A stretch of 64,000 nucleotides of DNA from Loigolactobacillus iwatensis. GTDB taxonomy: Bacteria; Bacillota; Bacilli; Lactobacillales; Lactobacillaceae. The position numbers and the translations under genes were made by a program. Positions 12,665-51,114 of this stretch are shown piece by piece. Each line of letters opens with the position of its first letter. The stretch's first letter is position 1. The DNA lies in NCBI RefSeq assembly GCF_003950295.1, contig NZ_RHNP01000001.1, positions 62,001 to 126,000 of the forward strand. Direction: 5' to 3'. The notes under the pieces were generated by a model, which saw nothing but the letters and a program-made list of their open reading frames with translations, ran no database searches and was not told the origin of the DNA.

Positions 12665-13228
12665 TTTAGTTCACATCCCACTAAACGTTTTAAAATTTTT
12701 ATAATTAACTTAACTTTAACATGGCAGAAATTGTTAATTGGACTAGAATCCAAAACTTGATAACTTCGTAATATCCTTACCTTAAAAATAACTTTAAGAG
12801 AATTTCTTACTATAGAGTCACGGACAGTTTGGTAGCTGAGCATCCTTGAGGCACACCTGTATTAGCACCCTTTAATTCAAAAATATCGTATCAAGTAACC
12901 AATTTTCAGAAATTTTCTTGACAAAATAAAATACACCGGTAAACTGGTGAAGTGGTCTAAATAGTAATAGTTACTTTTTAGAATACACTGACGACAGCTA
13001 ACTTTAGTATAACAATCTTAGTGTACACTTGAAATAATTTTGAGTGAAGCTACAACGTTACTAAATTGTGTTTGAAAATTAGTTTTATAAGTATTTTCTG
13101 ACTAATCCAGCGAATATTTAAAAAAGTAAGTTACTAGGTTTACCTCAGTGTGGTCAGTAATGTTTAGACTTCAAGTTTTTTAACACTTCCTAATACTAAC
13201 ACTTGATTTTTCGGAGGCTCTTATTCAA
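12665..13228. other. Control region and repeat remnant upstream of the metal transporter
   Basis: Contains the promoter/operator at 12918-12950. About 130 bp further on is a family-2-like repeat (13064-13190: TGTGTTTGAAAATTAG, TATTTTCTGACTAATCCAG, TTTAAAAAAG), which lies between the promoter and the first gene. No small gene is convincing. Confidence 0.5.
12918..12950 (+). promoter_or_regulatory. Promoter with metal-regulator-like palindrome
   Basis: TTGACA (12918-12923), 16 bp, TAAACT (12940-12945). An inverted repeat CACCGGT-AA-ACTGGTG (12934-12949) covers the -10 box. The segment TAAACTGGTGAA matches the AdcR zinc-box consensus TTAACYRGTTAA at ten of twelve bases, suggesting zinc-type repression. 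The distance to the first gene is unusually long (about 280 bp). Confidence 0.5.
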
Positions 13229-17606: not shown

Positions 17607-20600
17607 CTATTTACGCTTCTTTTCATTTTCATTCAATTTATCCGAAATTGGGTAAGTCAAACGAATTAAACTTGAAATAACGACTGGAATCATGAACACC
17701 AAGATGACGAGTCCAATGATAACGGCCAGCGCAACCTGAATTAAGGTTAGGACACCAGATGGCATTAAGGCCGCAAACGTACCACTCAAGATAATTGCAG
17801 CCGATAAGACAACTGCTCCAATAATCCCGGAGGCCGAAACAATTCGCGTACTTGGTGTACCACCCTCAAGTCCAAATTCACGGTACTTCATCATTAAGAA
17901 GATACTGTAGTCAACACCTAAAGCGATTAACATAACAAAGGAGAAGAATGGTGTGTTCCAAGTCAACATACTCTGACCTAAGAATACCCTGCTAACCCAA
18001 CGTGTGATGCCTAAGGAAGTAACATAGGCTAACAGTAACGTGCCCAAGATGTAGAACGGTTGTAAAACAGAGCGCGTAATGAACATCAAGGCTATCAGAA
18101 TACCGCCTAACATAATCGCCGCCGTCCGAACAAAGTCCTGACTAGCAATCTTATGCGTATCTGAAGTTACGGCAGTTTGCCCGCCAATTGCAACTTTGGC
18201 ATTTGCTAACGGTGTTCCTTTCAATTCATTTTGAACTTCTGTTTGCAAACGATCGATCCGTGCCATTGAAGTTGCTGAGCTTGGATTAGTGTTCAAAACA
18301 ATTGTAAACTTAGTTGCCTTATTATCCTCAGACATATAAGTGTTAATTGATTGCTTAAACGTCTTCCCCTTCAAAGCACTCTTTGGAATGTAGAACGTTT
18401 TAGCAGCTTCTGACTTTTGCAAACCAGTCAAATAACTATCCGCCGAACCGACACCCTTATTAATGGTGTGGATACCATTACCGGCAGTCACTAAGCCATC
18501 ATGTAAGGTTTGCATTTGTCCAACTAAGCCCTGCAACGTCGTATACATCGTCTTTTGTCCATTATTTACTTGGATTAAGCCTGCCGTTAATTGCGGTGCA
18601 TTTTGACCTAATTGATTTGCCCCACTAGCTAACTGACTAGCGCCAGACTGCAGTGTGCTTGAATTACCCGTTAACTGCTGGGCACCGCTATTTAATTGAC
18701 TGATACCATTAGTCAACTGTGGTACTTGACCATTTAATTGTCCTAAACCACCAGCCAACTGATTAGCGCCGCTAGTCAAAGCAGCCGAATTAGCAGTTAA
18801 CTGATTAGCACCTGTTGCTGCCTGGTTGACAGCGCCAGTGTATTGCTGCAAACCAGAAGATAACTGACTAACTTGACTTAACATCGTAGAATTACCAATC
18901 GTTGCCGCGATGGTATTGGCATTAGTTACATTGACACCAGAACCATTAACACCATTGTTAAGCTGATTAGCAATTTGTTGCGAACTCTGGGCCGCTGTTT
19001 CTAATTGGCCAAGTCCATTAGTCAATTCTGTCATTTGACCTGATAAACCTTGTAGGCTTGCTGCCGAAGGAATTTTATTAGTTTCATTTAATAAGTTTTG
19101 CGCATCAGTGGTCATCTTAGTTAACCCTGAAAGTGAGTTATTTAATTGATTTAAAGTATCCGCGTCAGGCATTGATTTGGTCAAATTAGATAACGAATCC
19201 AGACTGGAATTAAGTTGACTTAATGTCGACATTTCTTTACCAACAGATTGAACTGTTGTCACGTTTTTACCGGCTGATGATTCAATTTGGCCTAATTTAG
19301 CCTGGTCATCACTGGACAATTTTGTTTTATCAATTGAACCGGCTAAGCTAGCAATCGTGCCGTCGTTTTGACCAACTGCATTTAACTGGCCACTAACTTG
19401 CGTTTGTAGACTACCTAATTGATTAGCACTTTGTTGCAACGCCGTAATTTGTTGTTGGGCGCTTTGCATTGATTTAATCATTGGCTGTAACTGATTTAGG
19501 GTTCCTTCCAACTGCTTTAACTGATTTAATTCAGTTTGAACAGTGGCCGCTTGACTCTTAATCGTGCCAAGACTGTTGGCAGCCGTTGATAATTGCTGTA
19601 ATTGACCCTGTTGTTGCCCAAGTGTGTCATTGATATCCTTTATACCCGAATAAACACCATTATTGTACGCAGTTAATCCAGCGACAGCTTGTGGTAATTG
19701 CTGTGTTTGATTAACTAATTGCGTAACGCCGGAATTAACCGTACCCGATGAAGAGGATAACTGGTTCAAGCCATTACTTAGTGTTCCAACGCCAGTCGTA
19801 TACTGGCCTAGGCCACCGTCTAGCGTATAAGCACCACTAGTTAATTGACTAACACCACCTGCCAGGGTACCTGTACTGCTATTTAGCTGCGAAATGCCAC
19901 TGCCTAGTGCCGCAACACCAGTTGTATACTGGCCGATACCGCCACTCAAGGTATTGGCCCCTGTAGCAAGTTGACCCGCGCCGCTAGCTAATTGTTGACT
20001 GCCATCGGTTAGCTTACCCGTGCCATCAATTAATTGCTGAACGCTAGATAATCCGCTAGACATGTTGCTAGAGCCGAGTTGATCACTGGCCGAAGTAAGG
20101 CCTTTGTTGATCTTAGTTAGACCCTTACCGGCGGATTTCATACCCTTAGTAACTGTTCCAACCTGATTATCAACGTATAATTCATTAATCGCTGAACCAC
20201 CTGGTTGCGTGACGGAAGCTACGGTTTTAACGCCTTTAGCCTTCTGCAACTTTTTGGTTACTTGATCGATTAATTTAAGTGACTGTTCATTATTTAATTT
20301 TTTGTCTGATTTAATGTACAGTGTTGAAGGCTCCGCGGTTCCCTTTGAAAAATGATCCTGAACAACGTGGAAACCTTCTTTTGCTGGTAAACTATCGCTT
20401 AATTCATCTAAGTTATCGTAATCTAAATGATTATTGTAAGTAAACAAAAACGGTAACGTAATCACTAAAACAATTCCCAAAGCAATAAATGGGTGTAAAA
20501 CGGAACGGCTGGATAAACCGTGCCAAAGCTTACTGGTACTATGACCATCAAAGTTTTTAGTTGGCCAAAACATCCGCTTGCCAAGAACTGACATAAAGAA

Positions 20601-21578
20601 TGGGTTTAACGTCAATAAAACTGCGAGTAAGACTGCAACCCCAATCGCAACACCCACTGCTGACTGATAAATTGAAAATTTAGCTAAGCCTAACGCTGTA
20701 AATCCAATTAAAACGGAAGTTCCACTAAATAAGATTGTCCGTCCAGCCACTTTTCGGGCGGCCATCGTCGCTTTTTCATTGGAAACGCCACGACTGAGTT
20801 CTTCCTTAAACTGATCGAACAGTAGAATGTTATAATCCGTTCCAATTCCGAAAAGTACAACCACCATGAAAACTTCAGTGAAGTTAGATAGCGGAAAGTT
20901 GAAACGAGAAACTAAGTTCATCACAATACTTAAAGACGTAATAAATGACACACAAACCGTTAATAATGAAATCAACGGAACAACTGGTGAGCGGAAAACA
21001 ATGACTAAAACAATGAAAATAAAGATTGCCGCAATCACTTCGGTCTTTTTAAGACCTTCTTCAGTAGCCTGCGTAAAGTCATCATTTAAAATATCACTGC
21101 CCGTAACGTAGCTTTTAACCCCTGGCGTTTTGGCACCTTTAGTGATCTTTGCGTTCATATTACGAACGGTTGCTTTCTTTGAGACCATAAACTGAACTAA
21201 TTCAGTAGATTTATCTTTTGAAATCAACTGTTTTTTTGCTTCGGCATTATCACTTGCGGCAGTTACTGCCTTAATGCCATAGTGTTTTTTATTATCACGG
21301 AAATTCTTAATGGTTTGGTCAATGTTATCTTTCTGATTGGCCGTTAATTTCTTATTACCATTATTAAAAACAACAACTACCTGCCGGGTATTTCCTTGTC
21401 CCCGCCCCCAATGATTCTGAATCACATTGGCAACTTGACTCTGTGCAGAAGCCGGAATTTTAGTTTGACCCTTATCCCGCACTAGCTGTGAAGTGTTCGG
21501 CAAGGCTACAATTGCAATAATGACAATAACTATCCAAGCAATCAGTGCACCAATATGCCGATCAACAAATCGTTTCAT
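17607..21578 (-). CDS. Giant MMPL/RND-family transporter with repetitive extracytoplasmic domain
   Basis: A protein of about 1,323 residues. N-terminal TM1 is followed by an external loop and a block of six helices (MMPL domain 1, including GIGTDYNILLFDQFKEE). A central region of about 650 residues is rich in Gln, Ser, Gly and Asn and carries recurring GxxQLxxGxxxL-type units such as QLASGANQL, as in YhgE/Pip proteins. A second MMPL block with GVDYSIFLMMKYREF follows. Each block contains the membrane Asp expected for proton coupling. ATG 21578 is preferred, 21590 being an alternative. The upstream TetR gene is 28 bp away and regulates it. MMPL members export lipids, siderophores or drugs; the cargo here is unknown. 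Confidence 0.88.
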   Translation of the reverse strand: MKRFVDRHIGALIAWIVIVIIAIVALPNTSQLVRDKGQTKIPASAQSQVANVIQNHWGRGQGNTRQVVVVFNNGNKKLTANQKDNIDQTIKNFRDNKKHYGIKAVTAASDNAEAKKQLISKDKSTELVQFMVSKKATVRNMNAKITKGAKTPGVKSYVTGSDILNDDFTQATEEGLKKTEVIAAIFIFIVLVIVFRSPVVPLISLLTVCVSFITSLSIVMNLVSRFNFPLSNFTEVFMVVVLFGIGTDYNILLFDQFKEELSRGVSNEKATMAARKVAGRTILFSGTSVLIGFTALGLAKFSIYQSAVGVAIGVAVLLAVLLTLNPFFMSVLGKRMFWPTKNFDGHSTSKLWHGLSSRSVLHPFIALGIVLVITLPFLFTYNNHLDYDNLDELSDSLPAKEGFHVVQDHFSKGTAEPSTLYIKSDKKLNNEQSLKLIDQVTKKLQKAKGVKTVASVTQPGGSAINELYVDNQVGTVTKGMKSAGKGLTKINKGLTSASDQLGSSNMSSGLSSVQQLIDGTGKLTDGSQQLASGAGQLATGANTLSGGIGQYTTGVAALGSGISQLNSSTGTLAGGVSQLTSGAYTLDGGLGQYTTGVGTLSNGLNQLSSSSGTVNSGVTQLVNQTQQLPQAVAGLTAYNNGVYSGIKDINDTLGQQQGQLQQLSTAANSLGTIKSQAATVQTELNQLKQLEGTLNQLQPMIKSMQSAQQQITALQQSANQLGSLQTQVSGQLNAVGQNDGTIASLAGSIDKTKLSSDDQAKLGQIESSAGKNVTTVQSVGKEMSTLSQLNSSLDSLSNLTKSMPDADTLNQLNNSLSGLTKMTTDAQNLLNETNKIPSAASLQGLSGQMTELTNGLGQLETAAQSSQQIANQLNNGVNGSGVNVTNANTIAATIGNSTMLSQVSQLSSGLQQYTGAVNQAATGANQLTANSAALTSGANQLAGGLGQLNGQVPQLTNGISQLNSGAQQLTGNSSTLQSGASQLASGANQLGQNAPQLTAGLIQVNNGQKTMYTTLQGLVGQMQTLHDGLVTAGNGIHTINKGVGSADSYLTGLQKSEAAKTFYIPKSALKGKTFKQSINTYMSEDNKATKFTIVLNTNPSSATSMARIDRLQTEVQNELKGTPLANAKVAIGGQTAVTSDTHKIASQDFVRTAAIMLGGILIALMFITRSVLQPFYILGTLLLAYVTSLGITRWVSRVFLGQSMLTWNTPFFSFVMLIALGVDYSIFLMMKYREFGLEGGTPSTRIVSASGIIGAVVLSAAIILSGTFAALMPSGVLTLIQVALAVIIGLVILVFMIPVVISSLIRLTYPISDKLNENEKKRK

Positions 21579-21606
21579 CTTACAAGTCATCTCTTTCTAC
21601 CCAAAT

Positions 21607-22191
21607 TTATTTCTTTGCAAATGCATCCCAGCAGCTTTCCTGCAGTTCAGCAAAGATTTTTTCTAGATCTACATTTTTGAGTTGGCGGGTACTCAACAAA
21701 AACTCAATTGTGAAGATTAGTGAACCATACAAAATTGAAATTAAAACATCAGGATCACTTTTTTTAAATGTACCATCGGCCTGCCCATCTAAAATAAATT
21801 GACGAACAAACTGAGCCAAGTCCTCCCTAGCAGTAACACTCGTTTGATCCAGCGCGTCATTAAAAACGTGGTTGTTAATGAAGTAAACTTCTTGGACATG
21901 GTGGCGAATGAGGCGAATGCCAGTTTTATAAATGGCGTCAAAGCGCATTTTGGTCGTACCAGTAACCGGATAATATTTCCGCAAAGCCAACGTTAAAGTT
22001 GTAATAATGCTTTGGTACAATTCATTAAAAATTGCATTTTTACTTTTGAAGTAACGATAAATCGTCCCAACACCAACATCCGCCGCCGTCGCAATTTCAG
22101 GGACAGTTGTGACTTCATATCCCTTTTTGGCAAATAATGCTAATGCCCTTTTTAAAATCAAACGGCGTTTTTCAAGCGGTTTTGCCGTCAC
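21607..22191 (-). CDS. TetR-family repressor of the MMPL transporter
   Basis: A 194-residue TetR regulator. The helix-turn-helix spans VTTVPEIATAADVGVGTIYRYFKSK; the C-terminal part is helical and ligand-binding. I start it at GTG 22191 (AAGGTGA just upstream); the longer frame to GTG 22224 lacks a separate ribosome binding site. It is the first gene of an operon with the MMPL exporter. A perfect 18-bp palindrome at 22311-22328 lies upstream and is the likely operator, giving autoregulation and ligand-induced export. Confidence 0.88.
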   Translation of the reverse strand: MTAKPLEKRRLILKRALALFAKKGYEVTTVPEIATAADVGVGTIYRYFKSKNAIFNELYQSIITTLTLALRKYYPVTGTTKMRFDAIYKTGIRLIRHHVQEVYFINNHVFNDALDQTSVTAREDLAQFVRQFILDGQADGTFKKSDPDVLISILYGSLIFTIEFLLSTRQLKNVDLEKIFAELQESCWDAFAKK

Positions 22192-22310
22192 AACTTCACC
22201 TTCTTCAGAGTTTTTGTTTTTCACCTAACTGTCTTTCCAACTAAAAACAACGTAAATTGATTAGAAAATCACTTATGTAAGTAACAATTTTAGCAATCGG
22301 AATCCGTTTA

Positions 22311-22328: not shown

Positions 22329-22495
22329 GTTATTTACAAAAGTATATCCTACTCGCATTTTTTAGAATGTCAAGGATAAAATATGTCCATAATGGCGTTT
22401 TCATTCCGACAATTTTAATTATCACTAATGAAGCGACTTCAAAAGTATGATTTAAGCGCGCTTAATGTTGCGCTTAATCATTGCCAGACGCTTAA

Positions 22496-22524
22496 TTGGC
22501 AAACAATCGGCAACATGGTACAAT
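22496..22524 (+). promoter_or_regulatory. Promoter of the hflX leader
   Basis: TTGGCA (22496-22501), a 17-bp spacer, TACAAT (22519-22524). This places the start of transcription about 350 bp before hflX, implying a long leader RNA. Confidence 0.68.
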
Positions 22525-22545
22525 TCAGTTGTTAGTAAATCGGCT

Positions 22546-22580
22546 AAAAATAACGACAGTAATCGTGCCAGTTATTTTTT
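22546..22580 (+). terminator. Terminator-like hairpin at the start of the hflX leader
   Basis: AAAAATAAC (22546-22554) pairs with GTTATTTTT (22571-22579), ending in a T run just before the ribosome binding site of the leader peptide. It could be an attenuator or could mask that site. Confidence 0.5.
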
Positions 22581-22597
22581 AAAGGAGTATCCCAACC

Positions 22598-22627
22598 ATG
22601 AAATATAGTGCATTTTATATTAAGTAA
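22598..22627 (+). CDS. Nine-codon leader peptide upstream of hflX
   Basis: ATG 22598 follows a strong AAAGGAGT (22581-22588) at nine-base spacing and encodes MKYSAFYIK before TAA. It is too short to be a functional enzyme. It lies between the promoter and hflX and is followed by several hairpins, the arrangement of ribosome-mediated attenuation where antibiotic stalling on a short ORF relieves termination. HflX relatives in Listeria are known to be antibiotic-induced by attenuation; the mechanism here is inferred. Confidence 0.6.
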   Translation: MKYSAFYIK

Positions 22628-22638
22628 CCTCTCTAGTA

Positions 22639-22728
22639 TGTGTTTGAAAACCACCTTCATTAAAGTTGTTCTGCCCATTTTGGCCAAACATGCTCTTAAA
22701 GATGGGATTCTCTGCTTTTTCAAACACT
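22639..22728. repeat. Intergenic repeat family 2, copy a, in the hflX leader
   Basis: Starts GTGTTTGAAAACC and ends GCTTTTTCAAACAC: an 11-bp inverted terminal repeat enclosing about 65 bases. It begins 11 bases after the leader-peptide stop and can fold into one long hairpin in the leader RNA. Confidence 0.65.
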
Positions 22729-22883
22729 CCCTAAACGTAAATTTTGCTTAGACAATTAAGCAGCAAATTACTTATGACTTTTTAATTGAACTTATTATTA
22801 AGTTCGGCCATTTTAAATTAAGTCACGCTTTAATTTGTGGGTAATGAGATTTCGAATAATAAGAAATTTCAGGAAGGAATTTT

Positions 22884-24161
22884 ATGCAAGAAATGAATTT
22901 GACCAAAGTCATTGTTGGCGGTGTTAGCCAACAACAAGATAGTTTTGATTACGACATGACGGAACTCACGGAATTGGCCAAGGCTAACAACATGACCGTT
23001 GTTGCCACGGTTAACCAAAATCTTGATAAACCAATTGCCGCAACGTATTTTGGTATTGGTAAAATTGATGAAATCCGCCAGCTTGCTGAAGAAAATGAGG
23101 CGACTGTTCTCGTACTAAATGATGAGCTAACCCCTTCACAGATCCGTAATTTAGAAAAGGGATTAGGCAAGCTAATTCTCATGGATCGAACGCGGCTAAT
23201 TTTGGCTATTTTCGCCAATCGAGCAAAATCTAAAGAGGCCAAAATGCAGGTTCAAATCGCTCGTCTACGCTACGAGTTACCTCGCTTACGAGCTGGTGAA
23301 CAAGCCAATCTCATGCAGCAAGGCGGTGGCCCAGGCTTTGCTAATCGTGGTAGTGGTGAAACTAAGCTGGAATTAAATCAACGAACAATTAAGAATCAAA
23401 TTACGCACCTCAATCACGAATTAAAAACAATGGAAACCGCGCAACAAACAATGCGCAAACAGCGGGATAAAACAACGATTCCAACGGTGGCACTTGTTGG
23501 CTACACTAACGCTGGTAAGTCAACTACCTTAAATGGATTACTTCGCTTATTTGACGAACAAGAAACCAAACAAGTTTTTGAAAAAGATATGCTTTTTGCT
23601 ACCTTGGACACCAGTGTTCGTGAAATCAATCTGCCAGACAAAAAGAAGTTTCTTTTGAGCGATACAGTTGGTTTCATTAACAAATTACCAACTCAATTAA
23701 TTAAAGCTTTTCGCTCAACGTTGGCTGAGGCTGCCCAGGCTGACTTGCTCATTCAAGTTATCGATTTTTCTGATCCGCACTATGAAGAAATGATCAAAGT
23801 GACTGAAAAGACCTTGAATGAAATGGGGGTCACGGATATTCCAATGATCTACGCCTACAATAAGGCCGATCTACGAAAAGATACGCGCTATCCACTGCAA
23901 AATGGTGAGCATAACCTAGTTTACGCAGCAAATGATCCGGCTTCCTTAAAATTACTGACTAAGATGATTACCGCCACCCTCTTTGCTGATATGCAGCAAG
24001 TCACGTTCTTAATTCCATTTGCTGCTGGTAAATGGGTTGACTACCTTAATGAAAATACTAGTATCGTTGAACAAACCTACACTGAAACGGGTACAAAAAT
24101 TAAGGCCAACGTTCTACCAATTGACCATGAACGTCTATCGCGGTTTGAAATTACCGACTAG
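22884..24161 (+). CDS. hflX: GTPase HflX, ribosome-splitting factor
   Basis: A 425-residue HflX protein. The N-terminal HflX domain contains YFGIGKIDEI and the GPGFANRGSGETKLELNQR linker motif. The GTPase domain follows with P-loop GYTNAGKST near residue 205, DTVGF (G3), and NKAD (G4). A C-terminal domain ends at residue 425. HflX binds the 50S subunit and splits stalled ribosomes after heat or antibiotic stress. ATG 22884 follows AGGAAGGA. A long leader with a short ORF suggests antibiotic-responsive expression. Confidence 0.93.
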   Translation: MQEMNLTKVIVGGVSQQQDSFDYDMTELTELAKANNMTVVATVNQNLDKPIAATYFGIGKIDEIRQLAEENEATVLVLNDELTPSQIRNLEKGLGKLILMDRTRLILAIFANRAKSKEAKMQVQIARLRYELPRLRAGEQANLMQQGGGPGFANRGSGETKLELNQRTIKNQITHLNHELKTMETAQQTMRKQRDKTTIPTVALVGYTNAGKSTTLNGLLRLFDEQETKQVFEKDMLFATLDTSVREINLPDKKKFLLSDTVGFINKLPTQLIKAFRSTLAEAAQADLLIQVIDFSDPHYEEMIKVTEKTLNEMGVTDIPMIYAYNKADLRKDTRYPLQNGEHNLVYAANDPASLKLLTKMITATLFADMQQVTFLIPFAAGKWVDYLNENTSIVEQTYTETGTKIKANVLPIDHERLSRFEITD

Positions 24162-24226: not shown

Positions 24227-24545
24227 CTCTGGGCGTTATTCTAGAACACGCGCCAAATTCGGCTTTTGTCCTAGCCTCTCATTGTTTCTGAACGTTACTC
24301 TAGAACGTGCGCCAAAAGTCTGGGTTCACGTGCCTAACGGAAGTGTTTGAAAAAACGATTAGATTCTGAGGATTAGCCTAAACAGACGAATTACCTTTGA
24401 AAAAGGTGATTTGGCTGTTGTAGCTAACCGCAGGAATCTGTTTTTTCAAACACGACTACAGCCAATTCAATAACCATAGTACGGTTATTGAATTGGCTTA
24501 CGTTACGCAGTAAACCCAAAAGCGACTTTTGTCCCACTTCCCCTC
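24227..24545. repeat. Intergenic repeat family 1, copy c, split by a family-2 insertion
   Basis: The left part (24227-24338) contains ATTCTAGAACACGCGCC, a second unit ACTCTAGAACGTGCGCC, and AAAAGTCTGGGTTCACGTG then CCTAAC. The right part (24457-24545) resumes with TACAGCC, a TTCAATAACC...GGTTATTGAA stem, TTACGTTACGCAGTAAAC and GACTTTTGTCCCACTTC. In copy a at 4147 CCTAAC and TACAGC are directly joined, so 24339-24456 is an insertion. Confidence 0.8.
24339..24456. mobile_element. MITE-like family-2 element inserted in a family-1 repeat
   Basis: About 116-118 bp bounded by perfect 13-bp inverted repeats GTGTTTGAAAAAA (24343-24355) and TTTTTTCAAACAC (24441-24453), with no ORF. The dinucleotide AC flanks both sides and could be a 2-bp target duplication, though exact ends are uncertain. 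The empty site is known from copy a of family 1. Confidence 0.7.
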
Positions 24546-50933: not shown

Positions 50934-50960
50934 TACCATTGTAAATTGAATATTAGTTAT

Positions 50961-51080
50961 GTGTCTTCAGAGGCAGGGTGTAATTCCCGACCGGTGGTTA
51001 TAGTCCACGACCCATTAGTTGTTAATGGCTGAAGCGGTGAAATCCCGCTACCGATAGTTAAAGTCTAGATAAAAGAAGAT
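50961..51080 (+). promoter_or_regulatory. FMN riboswitch (RFN element)
   Basis: All the conserved RFN blocks are present in order: AGAGGCAGGGTGTAATTCCC, GACCGGTGG, GCGGTGAAATCCCGC, TACCGATAGT and AGTCTAGAT with AAAGAAG at the end. It precedes ribU and a terminator. FMN binding would stop transcription. Confidence 0.93.
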
Positions 51081-51114
51081 TGGGCTTATTTATTTGTGAC
51101 TATAAAATAAAGCG

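Follow-up and report, generated by a model that had tools for sequence, protein, structure and literature searches.

A putative drug-sensing uORF leader ahead of an HflXr-type gene in Loigolactobacillus iwatensis

In the window, the whole stretch of 64,000 nucleotides analysed here, an hflX gene of HflXr type is preceded by a leader with its own promoter and a nine-codon upstream open reading frame (uORF), MKYSAFYIK (Table 1). Judged from the sequence, the most likely reading, held with slightly more confidence than doubt, is that this is a drug-sensing uORF leader, the output step of which is not recognisable; its main rival, possible but not favoured, is a decayed leader. The sensor half of the leader looks intact, and the output half looks unrecognisable. 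In the proposed mechanism, one promoter would give a transcript with a hairpin, a strong ribosome-binding site (RBS) and the nine-codon regulatory uORF, followed by the HflXr-type gene. The uORF would sense macrolide- or lincosamide-stalled ribosomes, a role that the RLR uORF has ahead of Listeria hflXr, and a ribosome halted on MKYSAFYIK would raise hflX expression. Stalling on MKYSAFYIK and a drug response in the window species are what we infer.

Table 1. Features of the hflX leader and gene, in positions of the window
Feature	Positions	Strand	Basis
hflX promoter TTGGCA-N17-TACAAT	22496..22524	+	10/12 positions matched; 99/102 block identity with L. backii
5' hairpin just before uORF RBS, not a terminator	22546..22579	+	dG -5.2, z -0.29
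uORF Shine-Dalgarno AAAGGAG	22581..22587	+	sequence; invariant in L. backii
uORF MKYSAFYIK, putative drug-sensing leader peptide	22598..22627	+	30/30 nt identical in L. backii
Dispersed repeat, inverted ends GTGTTTGAAAA/TTTTCAAACAC, probable bystander insertion	22640..22727	.	end-motif counts, L. backii alignment
Hairpin A of conserved 3' leader	22737..22771	+	z -2.87
Hairpin B of 3' leader, contains GAACTTA/TAAGTTC	22775..22825	+	z -4.35
Hairpin C adjoining hflX RBS	22845..22871	+	z -2.26
hflX Shine-Dalgarno AGGAAGGA	22871..22878	+	read from sequence
hflX (HflXr-type GTPase)	22884..24161	+	TIGR03156 395 bits, tree

The gene and its known counterparts

The hflX product scores well above the TIGR03156 cut-off of 216.75. 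In the HflX tree (quick search, midpoint root), it groups with Lactobacillaceae and with those Listeria copies that have RLR-peptide leaders, and lies apart from canonical HflX proteins in other Lactobacillales, among them the second copy of one Listeria genome. The HflXr clade (47 rows, with Listeria copy 1) is separated from the canonical one (12 rows, with Listeria copy 2) at an SH-aLRT of 100. The tree holds 59 of 60 prepared proteins, 40 from the 110 HflX leader loci and 20 from further stretches, L132 being omitted for an odd N-terminus and a missing motif. By its clade the window gene is HflXr-type, and its product is a putative ribosome-splitting GTPase of that type, a candidate for resistance in Loigolactobacillus. 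Eight genomes of the genus were compared, the window's own counted in; the nearest named relative is Loigolactobacillus backii JCM 18665, with an HflX identity of 100% to the nearest per cent. A plasmid megablast of the hflX locus gave no match.

In Listeria monocytogenes, HflXr gives protection from lincomycin and erythromycin under the control of the leader rli80, where a 14-aa RLR uORF and a conditional terminator precede hflXr (lmo0762; PMC6310831); the same paper names translational attenuators of the ermC type. The likeness to the window lies in the HflXr-type gene, its own promoter and a short uORF with a strong RBS upstream. The difference is that the window uORF encodes 9 aa without RLR and has no terminator after it; thus the arrest-motif uORF and the intrinsic terminator of the rli80 type are both absent. 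Among the open-access papers searched, none deals by title and abstract with hflX leaders of Lactobacillaceae.

hflX leaders across relatives

The leader survey comprised 110 leaders, 98 of them distinct; the 80 named loci in it are the closest out of 369, and the fractions are not a census. An ATG uORF of 6-20 codons with a good RBS before it occurs in 33/98 leaders within the reach of 320 bases; that of L. backii, which starts 593 bases upstream, is scored there as a miss. The uORF has Arg/Lys-X-Arg/Lys near its N-terminus in 25/98, and RLR or RLK in 19, although several matches share one peptide, such as three Listeria with MRYIRLRFPKNLCN. Dinucleotide shuffles give means of 3.6, 0.47 and 0.03 for these three classes, with maxima of 7, 2 and 1 in 30 sets. 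The Arg/Lys-X-Arg/Lys class is described as the main stalling site of ketolides, macrolides having a broader specificity (PMC8298421).

Terminators after the uORF were checked in 24 chosen leaders. Between uORF and hflX, 14 of the 17 non-genus uORF leaders checked carry a terminator (a hairpin of -6.7 kcal/mol or better, then a T-run); of the other three, one lacks it, one has a weak hairpin (-5.0), and the case of Listeria L041 is doubtful. RLR/RLK-like uORFs followed by terminator hairpins, as in rli80, are seen in the following leaders of other Lactobacillaceae: L012, L021, L046, L047, L054, L061, L070, L083, L088, L090 and L091. From these sequences, the transcription-attenuation plan of Listeria seems common to much of the family, for example in Lacticaseibacillus and Lapidilactobacillus. 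In the Loigolactobacillus leaders with a uORF (n = 7, window and L. backii included), no real terminator follows the uORF, the best stem having -1.2 kcal/mol (L. backii). The antibiotic context that an earlier note had given for HflX leaders is supported here: because the window gene is HflXr-type by the tree and hflX in relatives is commonly preceded by a uORF leader with a drug-arrest motif, it is a good guess that the leader senses drugs.

Start-codon masking in sister species

Four sister species have uORFs encoding MIKKKRIFL (G004, zhaoyuanensis), MMSNKKRISQ (G003), MMTNKKRISQ (G005) and MSTKKRISQ (G001). Their leaders share with that of the window the gene, the genus, the promoter, a hairpin adjoining the TAAAGGAG site and a uORF of 9-10 codons; they differ by the peptide (M..KKRISQ with K-K-R), by codons complementary to the hflX start and by the lack of the repeat. 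The codons concerned (CGTATTTCC in three species, CGTATTTTCC in zhaoyuanensis) are complementary to GGAAATATG, which holds the end of the hflX RBS and the start codon. In these four species, the start codon is predicted to be 1-6% unpaired in the full leader vs 50-75% with the uORF masked to mimic a resident ribosome, and the pair count between uORF and Shine-Dalgarno/start is reached by 0, 1, 2 and 2 of 150 shuffles. The pairing is thus found in 4/5 uORF-bearing sister species. The helix shows no covariation in the clade (of 9 pairs, 0 changed in both partners and 5 are constant), because most of it is invariant. Two hairpins before the uORF covary at 4/9 and 4/8 pairs (four sequences, structure from one; G001, with its longer leader, omitted from the alignment). 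The first of the two 5' hairpins has a near-constant loop, GTCACAAATT, in leaders L006, L007, L008 and L011, the covariation being computed without L011.

By folding models, the sister leaders are predicted to be translational attenuators that mask the start codon. The pairing codons would presumably lie under a ribosome that stalls when the second Lys occupies the P site and Arg is the residue to follow. This resembles the ermC type, since all four leaders are predicted to hide the RBS and start of the gene by pairing with the uORF and to open upon ribosome stalling. The difference is that no such pairing is predicted in the window or in L. backii. The window leader does have, as erm-type leaders do, a conserved uORF with its own Shine-Dalgarno, conserved in a single sister species and with translation predicted.

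Promoter, uORF and their conservation

The promoter claimed in the earlier note is real by its match and by the conservation of the block from promoter to uORF (Table 1). TG precedes its -10 box; by number alone, such matches do not stand out from shuffles (1 vs a shuffle mean of 2.4), and a scan found no second promoter between the repeat and hflX. The hairpin that follows had been called terminator-like, which does not stand: it is no more stable than shuffles and precedes the uORF, and no terminator is detected in 22380-22900. Its counterpart in L. backii has a dG of -10.7 (z -3.22).

The strong RBS and nine-codon ORF are present as described. Conservation of MKYSAFYIK in relatives, proposed as a check, is borne out by identity in the sister L. 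backii and by nothing else among 397 family genomes, only 2 of which carry the peptide. Between these two species, 99/102 positions are identical from promoter to uORF, 30/30 in the uORF and 130/142 in the 3' leader, vs 132/178 (74%) at four-fold sites of hflX (Fisher 2e-7, 5e-4 and 6e-5, respectively). Sequence upstream of the promoter is likewise well conserved over 200 bases (177/196), so that general intergenic constraint accounts for part of the leader identity; the promoter-to-uORF block with the uORF (129/132) nevertheless exceeds this upstream identity (p 0.012). As the block is more conserved than both four-fold sites and upstream sequence, the uORF is probably kept for a reason. It has zero synonymous changes between its two carriers, from which a coding constraint is not demonstrable.

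MKYSAFYIK has neither Arg/Lys-X-Arg/Lys nor the RLR arrest motif, which counts against the drug-sensing reading. Its tail AFYI-K is presumably like the macrolide arrest peptides of Erm leaders, a likeness given no weight as evidence. Degenerate patterns for both uORF types retrieved, from the 397 genomes, only the known Loigolactobacillus hflX leaders (3 KKRISQ, 2 MKYSAFYIK); therefore, neither peptide was found ahead of another gene. By eye, the uORF tail GCATTTTATATTAAGTAAC (22610-22628) is like the 3' arm of hairpin B, CCATTTTAAATTAAGTCAC (22808-22826), and competing pairings are conceivable.

Folding and output of the window leader

The further hairpins noted before hflX are real; hairpins A, B and C lie there, with negative z-scores against shuffles (Table 1). 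Hairpin B differs by 13 bases in length in L. backii, and the stem of hairpin C has no change there. The whole leader folds barely better than shuffles (z -1.34), and a permissive Rfam search of it gave one chance-level match.

Transcription attenuation, as the earlier note had suggested, finds no footing here: no intrinsic terminator lies between uORF and hflX, which counts against a drug-sensing role. So does the masking of the uORF, by which predicted access to the hflX start is hardly altered in the window and in L. backii. Duplex energies between uORF and 3' leader are no better than those of shuffles in either species, and the pairing of the window uORF with the Shine-Dalgarno/start amounts to 0.3 pairs, a value reached by 20% of 40 shuffles. 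Sequestration of the RBS by the uORF was a candidate for the window and finds no support in these masked folds, duplex energies and pair counts; erm-type hiding of RBS and start is predicted in the four sister species and is not predicted in the window. With no terminator and no predicted sequestration, the output step may work through the stability of the mRNA or through a fold outside the model, or it may be partly decayed.

The dispersed repeat

The 11-bp-arm hairpin reported in the leader exists, with bounds at 22640-22727 and not 22639-22728. The repeat is 88 bases long, and its inverted ends of 11 bp fold with a dG of -20.9 (z -2.65). The end motif GTGTTTGRAAA occurs 277 times in the window genome, 231 times in L. 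backii and 5-34 times in six other species, and a reversed control pattern 3-9 times per genome (8 as the control for 277). By its inverted ends and high copy number, the repeat is of the dispersed, MITE/REP-like type. Since inverted ends belong to the whole family, the hairpin in the leader is no sign of regulation. The leader copy is identical to that of L. backii at 66/78 positions, plus 28 gap columns. The L. backii leader (L034) has an extra repeat-bearing segment of 320 bp, absent in the window, with the uORF undisturbed; near-direct repeats CAAACAC(T/C)CCCTA flank it, and a recent insertion or a recombinational deletion in the window lineage fits equally. Leaders of the uORF-bearing sister species are without the repeat. 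Most likely, the repeat was inserted between two constrained leader halves and has been tolerated there; possibly, its insertion disrupted an older attenuator.

Among the eight genus genomes, the family is expanded only in the window species and L. backii. In the window, end motifs lie at 13068, 22640-22727, 24343-24453, 51876, 61129 and 61313, many pairs being ~110 bp apart; the copy at 24343-24453 stands downstream of hflX.

Alternative readings and their meaning

The earlier note had the repeat provide the attenuating hairpin. Of the five hairpins folded, that of the repeat is the most stable, and L. backii has a homologous copy in the corresponding position; yet the repeat has neither U-run nor terminator, belongs to a dispersed, lineage-specific family and is lacking in uORF-bearing sisters. 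As it diverges in a relaxed way, or gains 320 bp, without disturbing the uORF, it is probably not the attenuator, and we consider this model very improbable. A leader in decay is a more serious, though still unlikely, account: the output of an ancestral attenuator would have been lost, with the repeat insertion aiding, hflX would be constitutive, and the uORF block would amount to promoter, stabilising hairpin and translated spacer. It would explain why neither terminator nor RBS sequestration is seen in the window, and loss is known elsewhere in the genus, the pairing having gone in L. jiayinensis (uORF MIIKKALPNN, 0.0 pairs) and the uORF being absent from the 44-nt hflX leader of L. bifermentans. 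However, a useless uORF is expected to drift, and this one has kept every nucleotide where four-fold sites have not.

It is improbable that the window leader acts by translational attenuation like its sister leaders, with a fold that escapes the thermodynamic model. For example, ACGUAAAUUUUG in the 3' leader might pair with the hflX start: the 3' leader is well conserved in L. backii and, by eye, CGUAAA-UUUUG pairs with GGAAUUUUAUG with one bulge. Against this, the local hairpin A has ACGUAAAUUUUG as its 5' arm, and folds with the uORF masked do not switch. The preferred reading, a drug-sensing leader, leaves room for a distinctly doubtful further proposal, namely that MKYSAFYIK represents a class of drug-arrest peptides without Arg/Lys-X-Arg/Lys that acts on hflX by neither terminator nor RBS masking, for instance through a stalled ribosome stabilising the mRNA.

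If such a third output were true, one and the same resistance gene would have passed through three kinds of control: a terminator switch (elsewhere in the family), start-codon masking (in the sisters) and this third output. If the preferred reading is right, drug-inducible ribosome splitting of HflXr type would be a trait across lactic acid bacteria, beyond Listeria, with one sensor idea, the short stalling uORF, wired to different outputs per genus. The leaders would form a natural series for how attenuators change mechanism, with a bearing on the intrinsic macrolide and lincosamide tolerance of food bacteria.

Other observations in the window

In the Rfam search of the whole 64-kb window, the only hit is an FMN riboswitch at 50959-51084 (98.1 bits). 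On the minus strand, 17607-22224 encodes a divergent TetR-type regulator together with a large protein resembling transporters, the latter with LxxG heptad repeats and with MMPL/RND matches below curated cut-offs.
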